A stretch of DNA of 7,523 nucleotides, taken from NCBI RefSeq assembly GCF_000331775.1, contig NZ_CAPJ01000279.1:1-7523 (forward strand), given 5' to 3'. The position numbers and the translations under genes are program-made. Shown one piece after another: positions 1,319-7,471 of the stretch (the stretch's first letter is position 1; every line of letters starts with the position of its first letter). The DNA is from Xanthomonas translucens pv. translucens DSM 18974 (lineage in GTDB: Bacteria; Pseudomonadota; Gammaproteobacteria; Xanthomonadales; Xanthomonadaceae). A model generated the notes under the pieces. That model was not told the DNA's origin, made no database searches, and saw only the letters and a program-made list of their open reading frames with translations.

Positions 1319-1347
1319 TTGACAGCCCGGTAAAGGCCATGTTTATC
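1319..1347 (+). promoter_or_regulatory. Predicted sigma-70 promoter of the ilvCGMA-leuA operon
   Basis: A perfect -35 hexamer TTGACA (1319-1324) is followed after 17 bases by a weaker -10 candidate, TTTATC (1342-1347). An overlapping alternative is TATCTC (1344-1349, 19-base spacer). Counting from either -10 puts the start of transcription at about 1353-1357, on or next to the A of the leader-peptide ATG at 1355. The -10 is poor (3 of 6 matches), so the call rests on the -35, the spacing, and the attenuator directly downstream. Confidence 0.65.
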
Positions 1348-1354
1348 TCGCTGC

Positions 1355-1483
1355 ATGTTGCATCGCCACACCAGCCCCAAGCCGACCCGCCTGCCCGCCG
1401 CGCTGCGCGCGGACCCCGCCGCGTCGCTCCTCGTACTCGTGCTTATTACCTCGCCCACAAGTGCGGGACGAACCGGCGTGTAA
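1355..1483 (+). CDS. ilvL: ilv operon leader peptide (42 aa), attenuator-coupled
   Basis: This short ORF runs from ATG 1355 to TAA 1481-1483. Residues 25-31 are Leu-Leu-Val-Leu-Val-Leu-Ile (1427-1447), the three end products of the operon, and Thr follows. This is the hallmark of a transcription-attenuation leader peptide, whose translation rather than its product is the function. The codons in the run (CTC, CTC, GTA, CTC, GTG, CTT, ATT) are mostly ones the structural genes avoid in favour of CTG, GTG and ATC, which should sharpen sensing of charged tRNA. No Shine-Dalgarno is placed correctly for ATG 1355, and the promoter predicts a transcript starting at that ATG, so leaderless initiation is likely. 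The N-terminal half (about 23 residues, Pro/Arg/Ala-rich) has no recognised role. The symbol is given by function. Confidence 0.85.
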
Positions 1484-1540
1484 GCGACAAGCAGCCTGGA
1501 TTCGATCAGACCCCGCACCGGCAACGGCGCGGGGTTTTTC
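1415..1540 (+). promoter_or_regulatory. Branched-chain amino acid transcription attenuator (1:2 / 2:3 / 3:4 RNA structures)
   Basis: Three alternative pairings can be drawn by eye. Protector 1:2: 1430-1437 pairs with 1460-1467 (8 bp including two G-U), then 1439-1441 with 1456-1458. Weaker outer pairs are 1424-1426 with 1469-1471 and 1418-1421 with 1474-1477. Strand 1 is the Leu/Val codon run itself. Antiterminator 2:3: GTGCGGG at 1461-1467 is perfectly complementary to CCCGCAC at 1512-1518, helped by CGAA 1469-1472 with TTCG 1501-1504. Terminator 3:4 is listed separately. A ribosome stalled at 1427-1447 would cover strand 1 and leave strand 2 free, so the antiterminator forms and ilvC is transcribed. 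A ribosome reaching the stop at 1481 would cover strand 2 and let the terminator form. This matches the classical his/leu/ilv attenuation logic. The pairings are seen in the sequence; the mechanism is inferred from them. Confidence 0.85.
1511..1539 (+). terminator. Attenuator intrinsic terminator upstream of ilvC
   Basis: CCCCGC (1511-1516) pairs with GCGGGG (1529-1534). After an A1517/C1528 mismatch, CCG (1518-1520) pairs with CGG (1525-1527) around a GCAA tetraloop (1521-1524), a stable GNRA type. Five T residues follow at 1535-1539, then CATTTT. The left arm is the same strand that the antiterminator uses, so the two structures exclude each other. Confidence 0.9.
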
Positions 1541-1605: not shown

Positions 1606-2613
1606 ATGACCAGTTCCGCCCAGCCCACCACCAAGATCGCCATCGTCGGTTACGGCAGCCAAGGTCGCGCGCACGCGCTGAACCTGCGCGAGTCCGGCTT
1701 CGACGTCACTGTCGGCCTGCGCGCGGGCGGCCCGACCGAAGCCAAGGCGCAGGCCGACGGCTTCGTGGTGAAGAGTCCCGCCGAAGCGGTCAAGGACGCC
1801 GACCTGGTCGCGGTACTGACCCCGGACATGGTGCAGAAGAAGCTGTACGACGAGGTGCTGGCGCCGAACATGAAGCAGGGCGCCTGCCTGCTGTTCGCGC
1901 ACGGCCTGAACGTGCATTTCGACATGATCAAGCCGCGTGCCGACCTGGACGTGGTGCTGGTCGCGCCGAAGGGCCCGGGCGCGCTGGTGCGCCGCGAATA
2001 CGAGATCGGCCGCGGCGTGCCATGCATCTGGGCGGTGTACCAGGACAAGAGCGGCAAGGCCGAGCAGTTCGCGCTCGAGTACGCCGCCGGCCTGGGCGGC
2101 GCGCGCGCCAACCTGATCAAGACCACCTTCAAGGAAGAGACCGAGACCGACCTGTTCGGCGAGCAGGCGGTGCTGTGCGGCGGCGCCTCGTCGCTGGTCC
2201 AGGCCGGTTTCGAAGTGCTGGTGGAAGCCGGCTACCAGCCGGAAATCGCCTACTACGAAGTGCTGCACGAACTGAAGCTGATCGTGGACCTGTTCTACGA
2301 AGGCGGCATCACCCGCATGCTCGAGTTCGTCTCCGAAACCGCGCAGTACGGCGACTACGTCAGCGGCCCGCGGGTCATCGACGCGGCCACCAAGGAGCGC
2401 ATGCGCGCCGTGCTGACCGACATCCAGAACGGCACCTTCACCAAGAACTGGGTCGCCGAATACGAAGCCGGCCTGCCGAACTACAACGCGTTCAAGCAGG
2501 CCGACCTGCAGCACCCGATCGAAGTGGTCGGCAAGCAGTTGCGCGCCAAGATGGTCTGGCTGAACGGCGACGCCGCTGCTGCCAAGCCGGCCGCGACAGG
2601 CCAAGCCGCGTAA
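1606..2613 (+). CDS. ilvC: Ketol-acid reductoisomerase, class I (short form)
   Basis: This 335-residue enzyme catalyses the Mg2+-dependent alkyl migration and NAD(P)H reduction of 2-acetolactate or 2-aceto-2-hydroxybutyrate, in valine/leucine and isoleucine synthesis. The Rossmann motif [10 protein letters not shown] is at 15-24. Catalytic and metal residues expected for class I are present: H99 (FAHGLN), K122 (APKGPG), D182 and E186 (ETDLFGEQ), E218 and E222 (YYEVLHEL) and S243 (FVSETA). The all-alpha knotted C-terminal domain runs from about 175 to 320 and ends in an Ala-rich tail. The length fits class I, not the longer class II of E. coli. The start at ATG 1606 has AAGGAAA at 1591-1597. 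The frame is open further upstream, but that part lies in the leader and terminator. The cofactor loop after beta-2 reads [11 protein letters not shown] (38-48), without the usual serines (see findings). It is the first gene after the attenuator, 43 bases before ilvG. Confidence 0.97.
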
Positions 2614-2656: not shown

Positions 2657-4378
2657 ATGAACTCCTCCGCTCACGGCACGCCCCGCAACGGCGCGCGCTG
2701 GCTGACGCAGGCCCTGGAAGCCGAAGGCGTGGACACGCTGTTCGGCTATCCGGGCGGCACCATCATGCCGTTCTACGACGCGCTGGTAGACAGCCAGCTC
2801 AAGCACATCCTGGTCCGCCACGAGCAGGGCGCGGCGCTGGCCGCCAACGGCTACGCCCGTGCCAGCGGGCGGGTCGGTGTCTGCGTCGCCACGTCCGGTC
2901 CGGGCGCCTCCAACCTGGTCACCGGCATCGCCGATGCGATGCTGGACTCGGTGCCGATGATCTGCCTGACCGGGCAGGTCGCCACGCCGCTACTGGGTAC
3001 CGACGCGTTCCAGGAACTGGACGTGTTCGGGCTGACCCTGCCGATCGTCAAGCACAGCTTCCTGGTGCGCCGCGTGGACGACCTGCCGCAGGTGCTGCGC
3101 GACGCGTTCCGCATCGCCCGCGAAGGCCGTCCGGGGCCGGTGCTGATCGATCTGCCCAAGGACGTGCAGCTGGGCGACGCCTCGCACTTGCCCGACCACG
3201 TGCCGGCCGCGGTCCCGGCACCACCGGCACCGCACGCCGCGGCCCTGGCCGAGGCGCTGGCGGCGATTGCCGGCGCCGACAAGCCGGTGATCTACGGCGG
3301 TGGCGGCATCGCCCTGGCCAATGCGGTGGACGCATTCCGCCAGTTCGTCGACATCACCCGCATCCCCACCGTGCTGACCCTGCGCGGGCTGGGCGCGCTG
3401 CCGCACGGGCATCCGTACTACCTGGGCATGCTCGGCATGCACGGCACCCGCGCCGCCAACATGGCGGTGCAGGAGTCGGACCTGCTGATCGTGGTCGGCG
3501 CGCGCTTTGACGACCGCGCCACCGGCAAGCTGGCCGAGTTCGCCCCGTTCGCGCGGGTCATCCACCTGGATGCCGACGCCTGCGAGATCTCCAAGCTGCG
3601 CCATGCCGACATCGCCGTGCCCGGCGATGTGGCCGAAGCGTTGCGTGCGCTGAGCGCGGCGACCAGCACCTGCGAGGCGTGGCACGCGCGCTGCGTCGGC
3701 CATCGCGAAAAGTTCGGCACCCGCTACGACGCGCCGGGCGATGACATCTACGCGCCCGGCCTGCTGAAGCGGCTGAGCGAGTTGGCCCCGGCCGACACGG
3801 TGATCGCCTGCGACGTCGGCCAGCACCAGATGTGGGTGGCCCAGCACTGCCGCTTCAACCATCCGCGCAACCACCTGACCAGCGGTGCGCTGGGCACGAT
3901 GGGCTTCGGCCTGCCGGCGGCGATGGGCGCGCAGTTCGCCTGCCCCGACCGCACCGTGGTGCTGGTCAGCGGCGACGGCAGTTTCATGATGAACGTGCAG
4001 GAGCTGGTCACCATCGCGCGCTGCAAGCTGCCGGTGAAGATCGTGCTGCTGGACAACAGTTCGCTGGGCATGGTGCGGCAGTGGCAGGAGTTGTTCTTCG
4101 CCGAGCGCTACAGCGAGATCGACCTGTCCGACAATCCGGACTTCGCCGCGCTGGCGCAGGTGTTCGGCATCCCGGCCAAGCGCATCACCGCGCGCGGCCA
4201 AGTCGAGGATGGTCTGGCCGAACTGCTGGCGCAACCGGGTCCGGCGCTGCTGCACGTGGCCATCGACGCGCGCGCCAACGTGTGGCCGCTGGTGCCGCCG
4301 AACACCGCCAACAGCACCATGCTGGAGAGCAATCCCGCGACCCAGCGCCAGGAGACCGTCCATGCGATACCAGCTTGA
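2657..4378 (+). CDS. ilvG: Acetolactate synthase large (catalytic) subunit, isozyme II type
   Basis: This 573-residue ThDP-, Mg- and FAD-dependent enzyme condenses pyruvate with pyruvate or 2-oxobutyrate, the first common step of branched-chain synthesis. The N-terminal ThDP-binding domain contains FGYPGG (29-34) and the catalytic Glu56 in RHEQGAA. A central FAD-binding region (about 200-345) includes GMLGMHGT (257-264) and GARFDDR (281-287). The C-terminal domain carries the ThDP motif GDGSFMMN (439-446) and GMVRQWQ (471-477), whose Trp is the site known for herbicide sensitivity in the family. The sequence resembles recalled E. coli IlvG more than IlvB or IlvI, for example TDAFQE, KHSFLV and the VWPLVPP C-terminus. 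It has about 10 extra residues at the N-terminus and about 20 at the C-terminus. GAAAGG at 2641-2646 serves ATG 2657. It overlaps ilvM by 17 bases, which suggests coupled synthesis of the two subunits. No frameshift like that of E. coli K-12 ilvG is seen. Confidence 0.97.
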   Translation: MNSSAHGTPRNGARWLTQALEAEGVDTLFGYPGGTIMPFYDALVDSQLKHILVRHEQGAALAANGYARASGRVGVCVATSGPGASNLVTGIADAMLDSVPMICLTGQVATPLLGTDAFQELDVFGLTLPIVKHSFLVRRVDDLPQVLRDAFRIAREGRPGPVLIDLPKDVQLGDASHLPDHVPAAVPAPPAPHAAALAEALAAIAGADKPVIYGGGGIALANAVDAFRQFVDITRIPTVLTLRGLGALPHGHPYYLGMLGMHGTRAANMAVQESDLLIVVGARFDDRATGKLAEFAPFARVIHLDADACEISKLRHADIAVPGDVAEALRALSAATSTCEAWHARCVGHREKFGTRYDAPGDDIYAPGLLKRLSELAPADTVIACDVGQHQMWVAQHCRFNHPRNHLTSGALGTMGFGLPAAMGAQFACPDRTVVLVSGDGSFMMNVQELVTIARCKLPVKIVLLDNSSLGMVRQWQELFFAERYSEIDLSDNPDFAALAQVFGIPAKRITARGQVEDGLAELLAQPGPALLHVAIDARANVWPLVPPNTANSTMLESNPATQRQETVHAIPA

Positions 4379-4610
4379 CCTGGTGCTGAAGCCGGTCGAA
4401 GGCGCGCTGCTGCGGGCGATCGGCATGGCCGAGCGGCGCGGCTTCGCGCCGCTGTCGATCCGCGGCGCGTCGGCGGCCGACGACGCCGGCCGCTGGCACC
4501 TGCAGATGGTGGTGGACGGCACTCGCCCCGGCGAGAGCCTGCGCCTGCAGATGGAGAAGGTGTACGACTGTGAGTCGGTGCGGGTCACTGCGCTGGATGT
4601 AGCGCCATGA
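4362..4610 (+). CDS. ilvM: Acetolactate synthase small regulatory subunit (single ACT domain)
   Basis: This 82-residue protein has the size and pattern of IlvM-type small subunits: one ACT domain with beta-1 YQLDLVLKP (3-11), a helix containing LLRAIGMAERRGF (16-28), then strands around LSIRG, WHLQMVVDG (45-53) and VRVTALDV (73-80). It should bind IlvG, raise its activity and perhaps modulate feedback by branched-chain amino acids. Small subunits of this short type often give weak or no valine inhibition, but that cannot be read here. AGGAG at 4350-4354 lies 7 bases before ATG 4362, inside the end of ilvG. The start overlaps ilvG by 17 bases in another frame, consistent with translational coupling and matched stoichiometry. 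Its TGA (4608-4610) is directly followed by the heptad repeat element. Confidence 0.92.
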   Translation: MRYQLDLVLKPVEGALLRAIGMAERRGFAPLSIRGASAADDAGRWHLQMVVDGTRPGESLRLQMEKVYDCESVRVTALDVAP

Positions 4611-4616
4611 AGCTGT

Positions 4617-4797
4617 CGGGACCGGGGACCGGGCACCGGGGACCGGGGCTGGGCCTTGCGGGCGTTTTGAGCGGCGCGCGCTGCCCGCGCTTTTCCGCTC
4701 GTTTGCATGCCCGCCCGCGGAGGGGCCTTCTTCCATGGAGGTTGCTTCTTCGTGGCAACCCGATTTTCCGCGTCCCCGGTCCCCGGTCCCTGGTCCC
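4617..4797. repeat. Intra-operon element with inverted arrays of 7-bp GGGGACC repeats
   Basis: The left arm (4617-4648) is about four head-to-tail copies of a heptad of the form GGGGACC, with variants. The right arm (4772-4797) is about three and a half copies in the opposite orientation, so the arms are largely complementary. The core of about 120 bases holds two smaller inverted repeats: GCGGGC (4658-4663) with GCCCGC (4683-4688), which encloses AGCG/CGCT (4670-4673 and 4679-4682), and GGTTGC (4740-4745) with GCAACC (4755-4760, 9-base loop). In RNA this would form one long branched hairpin. I recall similar heptad-flanked intergenic elements in xanthomonads. It encodes no transposase, so it resembles a REP-like or MITE-like passive element. 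It begins 6 bases after the ilvM stop and ends 11 bases before the likely ilvA ATG. Confidence 0.8.
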
Positions 4798-4808
4798 GCA
4801 CCCGCCCC

Positions 4809-5911
4809 ATGCCTGAACCCGGCCGCCCCGCCCCGCAGGAGCCCGACGTAGCCGACGTAGCGGTCAGCGTCGCCGACGTGCTGGCCGCGCAGGCGCGGCT
4901 GCGCCGCTACCTGCCGCCGACGCCGGTGCACTATGCCGAGCGTTTCGGGGTGTGGCTGAAGCTGGAGAACCTGCAGCGCACCGGGTCCTACAAGGTGCGC
5001 GGCGCGCTGAATGCGCTGCTGGCCGGGCTGGAACGCGGCGACGAGCGGACCGTGATCTGCGCCTCGGCCGGCAACCATGCGCAGGGCGTGGCCTGGGCCG
5101 CACACCGCCTGGGCGTGCAGGCGATCACGGTGATGCCGCACGGCGCGCCGCAGACCAAGATCGCCGGCGTCGCCCACTGGGGCGCCACCGTGCGCCAGCA
5201 CGGCGACAGCTACGACGAGGCCTACGCCTTCGCCCGCGAACTGGCCGAGCAGAACGGCTACCGCTTCCTGTCCGCGTTCGACGACCCGGACGTGATCGCC
5301 GGCCAGGGCACGGTCGGCATCGAGCTGGCCGCGCACGCCCCGGACGTGGTGATCGTGCCGATCGGCGGCGGCGGCCTGGCCGCCGGGGTGGCCCTGGCGC
5401 TGCGCTCGCAGGGCGTGCGCATCGTCGGCGCCCAGGTCGAGGGCGTGGACTCGATGGCGCGGGCGATCCGCGGCGATATCCGCGCGATCGACCCGGTACC
5501 CACCCTGGCCGACGGCGTCAAGGTTAAAATACCCGGGTTCATCACCCGCCGGCTGTGCGCCAGCCTGCTCGACGACGTGGTGATCGTGCGCGAGGCGGAA
5601 CTGCGTGAAACGCTGGTCCGCCTGGCGCTGGAGGAGCACGTCATCGCCGAAGGCGCCGGCGCGCTGGCCCTGGCGGCCGGCCGCCGCGTCTCCGGCAAGC
5701 GCAAATGCGCGGTGGTGTCCGGTGGCAACATCGACGCCGGCGTGCTGGCGACGCTGCTGTCGGAGGTGCGCCCACGCGCGCCCCGCAAGCCGCGCCGCCG
5801 CAATGCCGAGCGACTTCGCAACCAACGTGCCGCCGCCCCGCCCGCTCCCGCTCGCCCCGTGTCTTCGCTCCCCCATCCGCCAGCCACCGCCGCCGTAGAG
5901 GAAACCATCTG

Positions 5912-5915
<4 letters not shown>
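4809..5915 (+). CDS. ilvA: Threonine dehydratase (threonine deaminase), short form without ACT domain
   Basis: This 368-residue PLP enzyme would convert L-threonine to 2-oxobutyrate and ammonia, the entry to isoleucine synthesis. It shows fold-type II motifs: the PLP lysine K62 in GSYKVRG (59-65), the substrate loop SAGNHAQG (86-93), the glycine-rich phosphate loop GGGGL (186-190), and SGGN (304-307) near the pyridine nitrogen. The catalytic domain ends near residue 320. The tail (321-368) is Arg-, Pro- and Ala-rich with no ACT-like regulatory domain, so it resembles TdcB in length rather than E. coli IlvA; allosteric control by isoleucine through that domain is therefore not expected. Context argues for the biosynthetic role. 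The start is uncertain: ATG 4809 gives a sensible N-terminus but no Shine-Dalgarno. In-frame GTG 4752 has GGAGG at 4737-4741 but lies inside the repeat element, and ATG 4707 has neither. The stop overlaps the leuA GTG start. Confidence 0.93.

Positions 5916-7471
<1,556 letters not shown>

Follow-up and report, generated by a model that had tools for sequence, protein, structure and literature searches.

It is likely that the ilvC operon of Xanthomonas translucens pv. translucens DSM 18974 is preceded by a ribosome-mediated transcription attenuator of the kind proposed in the initial annotation of this DNA, with a leader ORF that would be leaderless. We studied the element in a window of 7,523 nucleotides (contig NZ_CAPJ01000279.1), by which we mean the whole stretch of DNA analysed. 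The comparative evidence supports the attenuator through a conserved run of Leu, Val and Ile codons, through the spacing of this run from the helices that follow and through covariation in the 2:3 and 3:4 helices. The start site, translation, termination and amino acid response described below are predictions made from the sequence.

Leader and operon in the window

The leader sits between ilvC on the plus strand and, on the minus strand, the start of a gene resembling methyl-accepting chemotaxis proteins, which scored below all curated cut-offs. The ORF, the mutually exclusive helices and the terminator annotated ahead of ilvC-ilvG-ilvM-ilvA-leuA were all confirmed at the positions given in Table 1; in this order the five genes form a putative operon. 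Four of the five operon gene products exceed their NCBIfam cut-off, the exception being the IlvM-like protein. The IlvC of the window is 99% identical to that of two genomes and 90-91% identical to IlvC of Xanthomonas euvesicatoria. This gene set had also been put forward as novel, a claim that fails, as the five-gene ilvCGM-leuA operon was demonstrated in X. campestris by RT-PCR (PMC12575087); in X. citri, ilvCGM, tdcB and leuA are named together (PMC6337780). Between the ilvM-like gene and ilvA lie 198 nt that contain a 27-nt inverted repeat, 93% complementary (4617-4643 and 4772-4798), which could form a large hairpin within the operon.

Table 1. Features of the predicted attenuator and of the operon that follows it (window coordinates)
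Feature	Position	Strand	Basis or remark
-35 element TTGACA	1319..1324	+	same position relative to ATG in relatives
Probable -10 TTTATC, preceded by TG	1342..1347	+	17-nt spacer, 7 nt to ATG; predicted transcript start 1354/1355
Probably leaderless leader ORF of 42 codons (ATG to TAA)	1355..1483	+	ORF list; similar N-termini in many relatives (MLQRHT, MLHRHT, MTQRN..)
Control codons CTC CTC GTA CTC GTG CTT ATT (L L V L V L I)	1427..1447	+	sequence; codon bias; recurrence in relatives
Strand 1, pairs with 1456-1468 (anti-antiterminator)	1428..1441	+	minimum-energy fold
Strand 2 GTGCGGG, antiterminator 5' arm	1461..1467	+	96.6% paired cells, 8-pair 2:3 helix, 100 sequences
Inner antiterminator helix, 1469-1481 with 1491-1504, 12 bp	1469..1504	+	fold of 1459-1519
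Strand 3 CCCGCAC, common to antiterminator and terminator	1512..1518	+	complementarity, comparative pairing
Predicted intrinsic terminator, GCAA cap, T5 run 1535-1539	1511..1539	+	fold; 3:4 helix 99.2% paired
ilvC, ketol-acid reductoisomerase	1606..2613	+	NCBIfam NF004017/TIGR00465, above cut-off
ilvG, acetolactate synthase large subunit	2657..4378	+	NF006524, above cut-off
ilvM-like, acetolactate synthase small subunit	4362..4610	+	NF008362, weak match, 28.2 bits vs cut-off 68
ilvA/tdcB-like, threonine dehydratase	4809..5915	+	NF006455, above cut-off
leuA, 2-isopropylmalate synthase	5912..7471	+	NF002086, above cut-off

Translation confirmed the leader ORF and its LLVLVLI run, so that the window holds, as in an attenuator, a short ORF with control codons for the products of the operon. 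An ATG-started ORF with seven consecutive Leu, Val or Ile codons did not occur in any of 4,000 dinucleotide shuffles of positions 1043-1605; a comparable terminator arose in 72 of them. An Rfam scan of the window up to E = 5 gave three matches, none of them to an amino acid leader or a T-box.

The hairpin annotated between strands 1 and 2 is essentially correct, the minimum-energy fold pairing 1439-1441 with 1456-1458, 1432-1437 with 1460-1465 and 1428-1430 with 1466-1468. Strands 2 and 3 form the perfect 7-bp antiterminator that had been described, and they pair when the RNA from 1459 to 1519 is folded alone. An inner helix that had been missed extends this structure beyond the 7 bp. The GCAA-capped terminator hairpin (1511-1534) and its T5 run are also present, but the hairpin carries an A-C mismatch (1517/1528) that had been overlooked. 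Isolated RNAs adopt the antiterminator or the terminator as predicted, but when strand 1 is removed and the 3' arm of the terminator is kept, the terminator is preferred over the 2:3 helix. Antitermination would therefore have to depend on the order in which the RNA is made. Taken whole, the leader has no exceptional fold stability (z -1.28; 22 of 200 shuffles equalled or exceeded it), and a consensus scan picked up neither the promoter nor the terminator, presumably because of the atypical -10 and the terminator mismatch.

Conservation of the run, its spacing and the helices

We collected 135 ilvC loci, made up of the window, the first 24 of a set of 80 loci, 30 short loci and 80 longer loci; the other 56 of the set were left out as more distant. 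Common ancestry and the double sampling of five places (130 of the 135 loci are distinct, and 119 of the 123 with a leader) mean that the counts do not represent independent events. The element was found in 123 of the 135 loci, 115 of them by a script that required the codon run and the terminator and eight by a covariance model, R1, applied to the 20 loci that the script missed. Of the 12 loci without the element, L008 and L156 represent a single contig, sampled twice, that stops 110 nt upstream of ilvC. No leader was found within the stretch examined in the remaining ten, most of them labelled as Rhodanobacteraceae. Across Xanthomonadaceae loci the codon run returns together with strands 2 and 3 and the terminator. 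In X. euvesicatoria the run begins 328 nt before ilvC, and in Lysobacter-type loci the leader lies about 2 kb before it, with a gene in between that is presumably ilvD.

Across the class, R1 matched 64 of 369 genomes at E <= 0.001. Five of these matches fell below 1e-9, four in genomes that also belong to the Xanthomonadaceae draw and one (G663) in the sister family, which is the family of a Rhodanobacter genome. Given this weak background, only matches with E < 1e-9 were counted in Xanthomonadaceae, and by hand count they occur in 207 of the 297 genomes drawn. The sister family had matches at E <= 1e-7 in 96 of 117 genomes, of which the 30 best-scoring were examined. LeuA was the best match to a window protein in the 3-kb locus for 27 of these 30 best-scoring loci (of 96); the remaining three had no window-protein match, and the protein downstream is presumably IlvD. 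An IlvC match was present in 220 genomes of the Xanthomonadaceae draw, one of them marginal, and in none of the other 77. These 77 are possibly branched-chain auxotrophs or incomplete assemblies, and the 20 of them that were listed measure 2.2-3.3 Mb.

The geometry of the leader is preserved in these loci. The run ends 13 nt before strand 2 in 118 of the 123 loci and 7, 10 or 22 nt before it elsewhere, and this spacing stays rigid even though anything from 18 to 43 codons may separate the ATG from the run. The stop codon lies 13 nt past strand 2 in 109 loci, 1 nt past it in 13 and 7 nt past it in one. With a ribosome footprint of textbook size, these distances agree with the annotated logic, in which a ribosome stalled on the run would leave strand 2 free and one at the stop codon would cover it. 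The 13 loci with the 1-nt distance are L004, L009, L010, L131, L160, L162-L168 and L179, two places among them sampled twice, and in these a ribosome terminating at the stop codon would occupy strand 2.

Codon choice in the runs departs strongly from that of the operon genes, a point missed in the initial annotation. Among 72 distinct runs, Leu is encoded by CTC (55%) or CTT (44%) and in only 0.8% by CTG, the codon that accounts for 83% of Leu in ilvC, ilvG and leuA of the same loci. Ile is ATT in 96% of cases, against 4% in the operon genes, where ATC makes up 95%, and for Val the share of GTA rises from 3% in the genes to 35% in the runs as that of GTG falls from 57% to 5%. The runs thus avoid the commonest synonyms, CTG, ATC and GTG. 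Pairing alone does not explain this choice, since the penultimate codon (CTT in 117 of the 123 loci) and the last (ATT in 122) lie in the loop of the 1:2 hairpin in the fold of the window. CTC and CTT are read by one tRNA under standard decoding rules. Biased regulatory codons fit the theory set out in PMC1183508.

Compensatory change was assessed in two alignments, A2 (45 chosen sequences aligned with MAFFT) and A3 (100 chosen sources, all matched, aligned to a model fitted to the terminator helix and lacking the 2:3 helix). The 2:3 helix is 96.4% paired in A2 and, over 8 pairs, 96.6% paired in A3, where 23 cells show a double change against a shuffled mean of 5.4. One pair in A3 is U-A in 74 sequences, C-G in 18, A-U in one and U-G in one, broken in five and gapped in one. 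The outermost pair is lost in 14 of 95 A3 sequences, and the number of 2:3 pairs with a double change in A3 (two) is not above shuffles. The terminator 3:4 helix is 99.2% paired, and five of its pairs have changed on both sides, in an alignment fitted to that helix. An antiterminator and a terminator that exclude each other are thus conserved before the first gene with compensatory changes. The 1:2 helix, which had been expected to behave likewise, was counted in a second register (1431-1434 and 1436-1442); it is paired in 84.4% of cells, no more than in shuffles, and shows no covariation beyond them. On A2, RNAalifold returned the terminator together with a small helix (columns 36-39 with 51-54), choosing neither 1:2 nor 2:3; we did not adopt the small helix, because one consensus cannot show alternative states.

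The antiterminator was also folded, from strand 2 to strand 3, for 85 distinct segments from the 115 script-found loci. Outer and inner pairing appeared in all 85 (mean z -3.3, 74 below -2), the outer pairing partly by construction since the segments were anchored on GCGGG and CCCGC. The longest inner stem reached at least 4 bp in 83 of the 85, and its arms differ between lineages (GGCGT/ACGCC, GGTGT/ACACC, CTGGC/GCCAG, GGGTTG/CAACCC).

Promoter position and start of the leader

Upstream of the leader the distance between promoter and start codon is nearly fixed. All 123 loci carry TTGACA (122) or TTGACG (one) 29-33 nt before the in-frame leader ATG, and the distance is 30 or 31 nt in 115 of them, or in 103 of 111 distinct segments. 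In mononucleotide-shuffled upstream regions, TTGACA N29-33 ATG occurred in 5 of 2,460. The spacer sequence varies, and a T-rich -10, often after TG, stands at the right place, although it matches TATAAT poorly. A C directly precedes the leader ATG in 93 of the 111 distinct segments. No Shine-Dalgarno-like (SD-like) sequence precedes the leader ATG in any of the 123 loci, compared with 98 of 122 at the ilvC start, and the 30 best-scoring of the 96 sister-family matches have the same promoter position and likewise no SD. The leader is thus unlike the SD-initiated type of E. coli. The promoter would place +1 at the start codon, and this fixed distance together with the missing SD suggests that the leader is probably leaderless. 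Our literature search found no start-site data for this leader.

Similar promoters stand before another set of leaders. Upstream of the best aspartokinase gene we observed a Thr/Ile-rich leader ORF in six of six genomes (L231-L236), each with TTGACA or TTGACG 30-31 nt before the ATG and no SD; the survey took the best locus per genome and left out second copies. Hairpins follow these leaders and lack a clear T-run in the stretches inspected. In the 3.6-kb loci around hisG of six genomes, no His-rich small ORF was found upstream of the gene on either strand. A small gene does precede hisG in L225, L226 and L228, with a near-palindromic site around CACGCTATTACATT ahead of it, and this gene may encode a regulator of the TrpR/YerC type.

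We propose that transcription would start at the leader ATG itself or about two bases from it at most, as the promoter position suggests, so that a ribosome would load on the emerging 5' end of the RNA. Where charged tRNA is plentiful, the ribosome would pass the Leu, Val and Ile codons, reach the stop codon and cover both strand 2 and the 5' arm of the inner helix, and the terminator (3:4) would form ahead of ilvC. A shortage of charged tRNA for the mostly rare run codons (CTC/CTT, GTA/GTC, ATT) would stall the ribosome on the run, its front reaching about 13 nt further; strand 1 would be covered and strand 2 left free. The antiterminator would then fold from strands 2 and 3 and the inner helix between them, allowing the polymerase to proceed into the operon. 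Should no ribosome load, 1:2 and 3:4 would form and transcription would stop.

Alternative readings and known systems

The attenuator could be real and yet be transcribed from another promoter with an ordinary 5' UTR, its initiation independent of an SD and not leaderless. The atypical -10 hexamer and the promoter scan that found nothing would fit this. Against it, the spacer varies in sequence but TTGACA keeps its distance of 30 or 31 nt from the ATG in 103 of 111 distinct segments, a C stands at -1 in 93 of them and no SD is present; we consider this reading unlikely. We regard as less probable still the reading that the main product of the leader acts in trans, as a small RNA or peptide like rnTrpL/peTrpL of Sinorhizobium (PMC7298713), with control of ilvC secondary. 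If transcription stopped early, an RNA of about 185 nt that contains the ORF would be set free, and part of the peptide, ITSPTGAGR, is conserved among relatives. The conserved C-terminal part of the peptide, however, falls on the 1:2 loop and on strand 2, the stretch from the start to the run varies in length, and a switch between terminator and antiterminator has no obvious use in a purely trans-acting RNA.

The strongly conserved -35 element might also suggest that a DNA-binding protein controls the operon, with a constitutive terminator in the leader and a codon run that arose by chance. This is very improbable, given that no shuffle reproduced the run and that run, spacing and covarying antiterminator are conserved across two families. 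We thus favour the attenuator with a leaderless leader.

Leaderless attenuators have already been published in Actinobacteria and Sinorhizobium, and the mechanism class is known. Attenuators of this class were reportedly predicted in proteobacteria by Vitreschak et al. in 2004, in a set that may include Xanthomonas. The enteric leu and ilv attenuators combine a leader peptide rich in branched-chain codons with a switch between antiterminator and terminator, and their leaders have an SD. The systems concerned (PMC1183508) are leu, ilvGMEDA and ilvBN in E. coli and Salmonella, and regulatory codons are biased there too, with CUA in the leu leader. The present element has the same kind of leader and switch and differs in its genes (ilvC-ilvG-ilvM-ilvA-leuA), in a promoter that abuts the ATG, in CTC and CTT as Leu codons and in having no Rfam amino acid leader match. 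In Corynebacterium glutamicum the ilvBNC transcript starts one nucleotide from the start codon of a leader that has Ile, Leu and Val codons and no ribosome-binding site (PMC11857589); the peptide (15 aa), phylum and operon are different. Sinorhizobium meliloti trpL is a leaderless leader ORF in a proteobacterial attenuator (PMC7298713, PMC10117765), but it senses Trp through a 14-aa peptide in an alphaproteobacterium. Streptomyces lividans has leaderless leaders before amino acid genes, ilvL, leuL and trpL among them (PMC8079986); these are actinobacterial, 12 to 29 aa long and in some cases without a typical terminator. Our literature search recognised no description of the Xanthomonas leader, most subscription papers being outside its scope. 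The novelty claimed for the architecture in the initial annotation is better placed in three features that it had overlooked, namely a promoter abutting the ATG, control codons that are rare and an inner helix in the antiterminator.

In X. campestris an ilvC reporter carrying a fragment of about 500 bp is repressed by the plant hormone IAA (PMC12575087); the main text of that paper contains neither 'attenuat' nor 'leader'. Given the position of the run in X. euvesicatoria, we infer that this fragment includes the leader, which would offer a regulatory element inside the IAA-repressed region.

A wider reading, on which our confidence is evenly balanced, is that leaderless attenuation is standard in Xanthomonadaceae and Rhodanobacteraceae, where branched-chain (and Thr/Ile) leaders would start at RNA +1 and so tie ribosome loading to transcription initiation. 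Leu would be read almost only through CTC and CTT, by one isoacceptor, one ancestral element would head leuA, ilvD or ilvC according to lineage, and the IAA repression of the ilvC promoter region could act through this element. The leaders of these families would then provide a natural set for studying attenuation with ribosome loading at the RNA 5' end and no SD, and their codon choice may serve as a test of selective tRNA charging outside the enterics.
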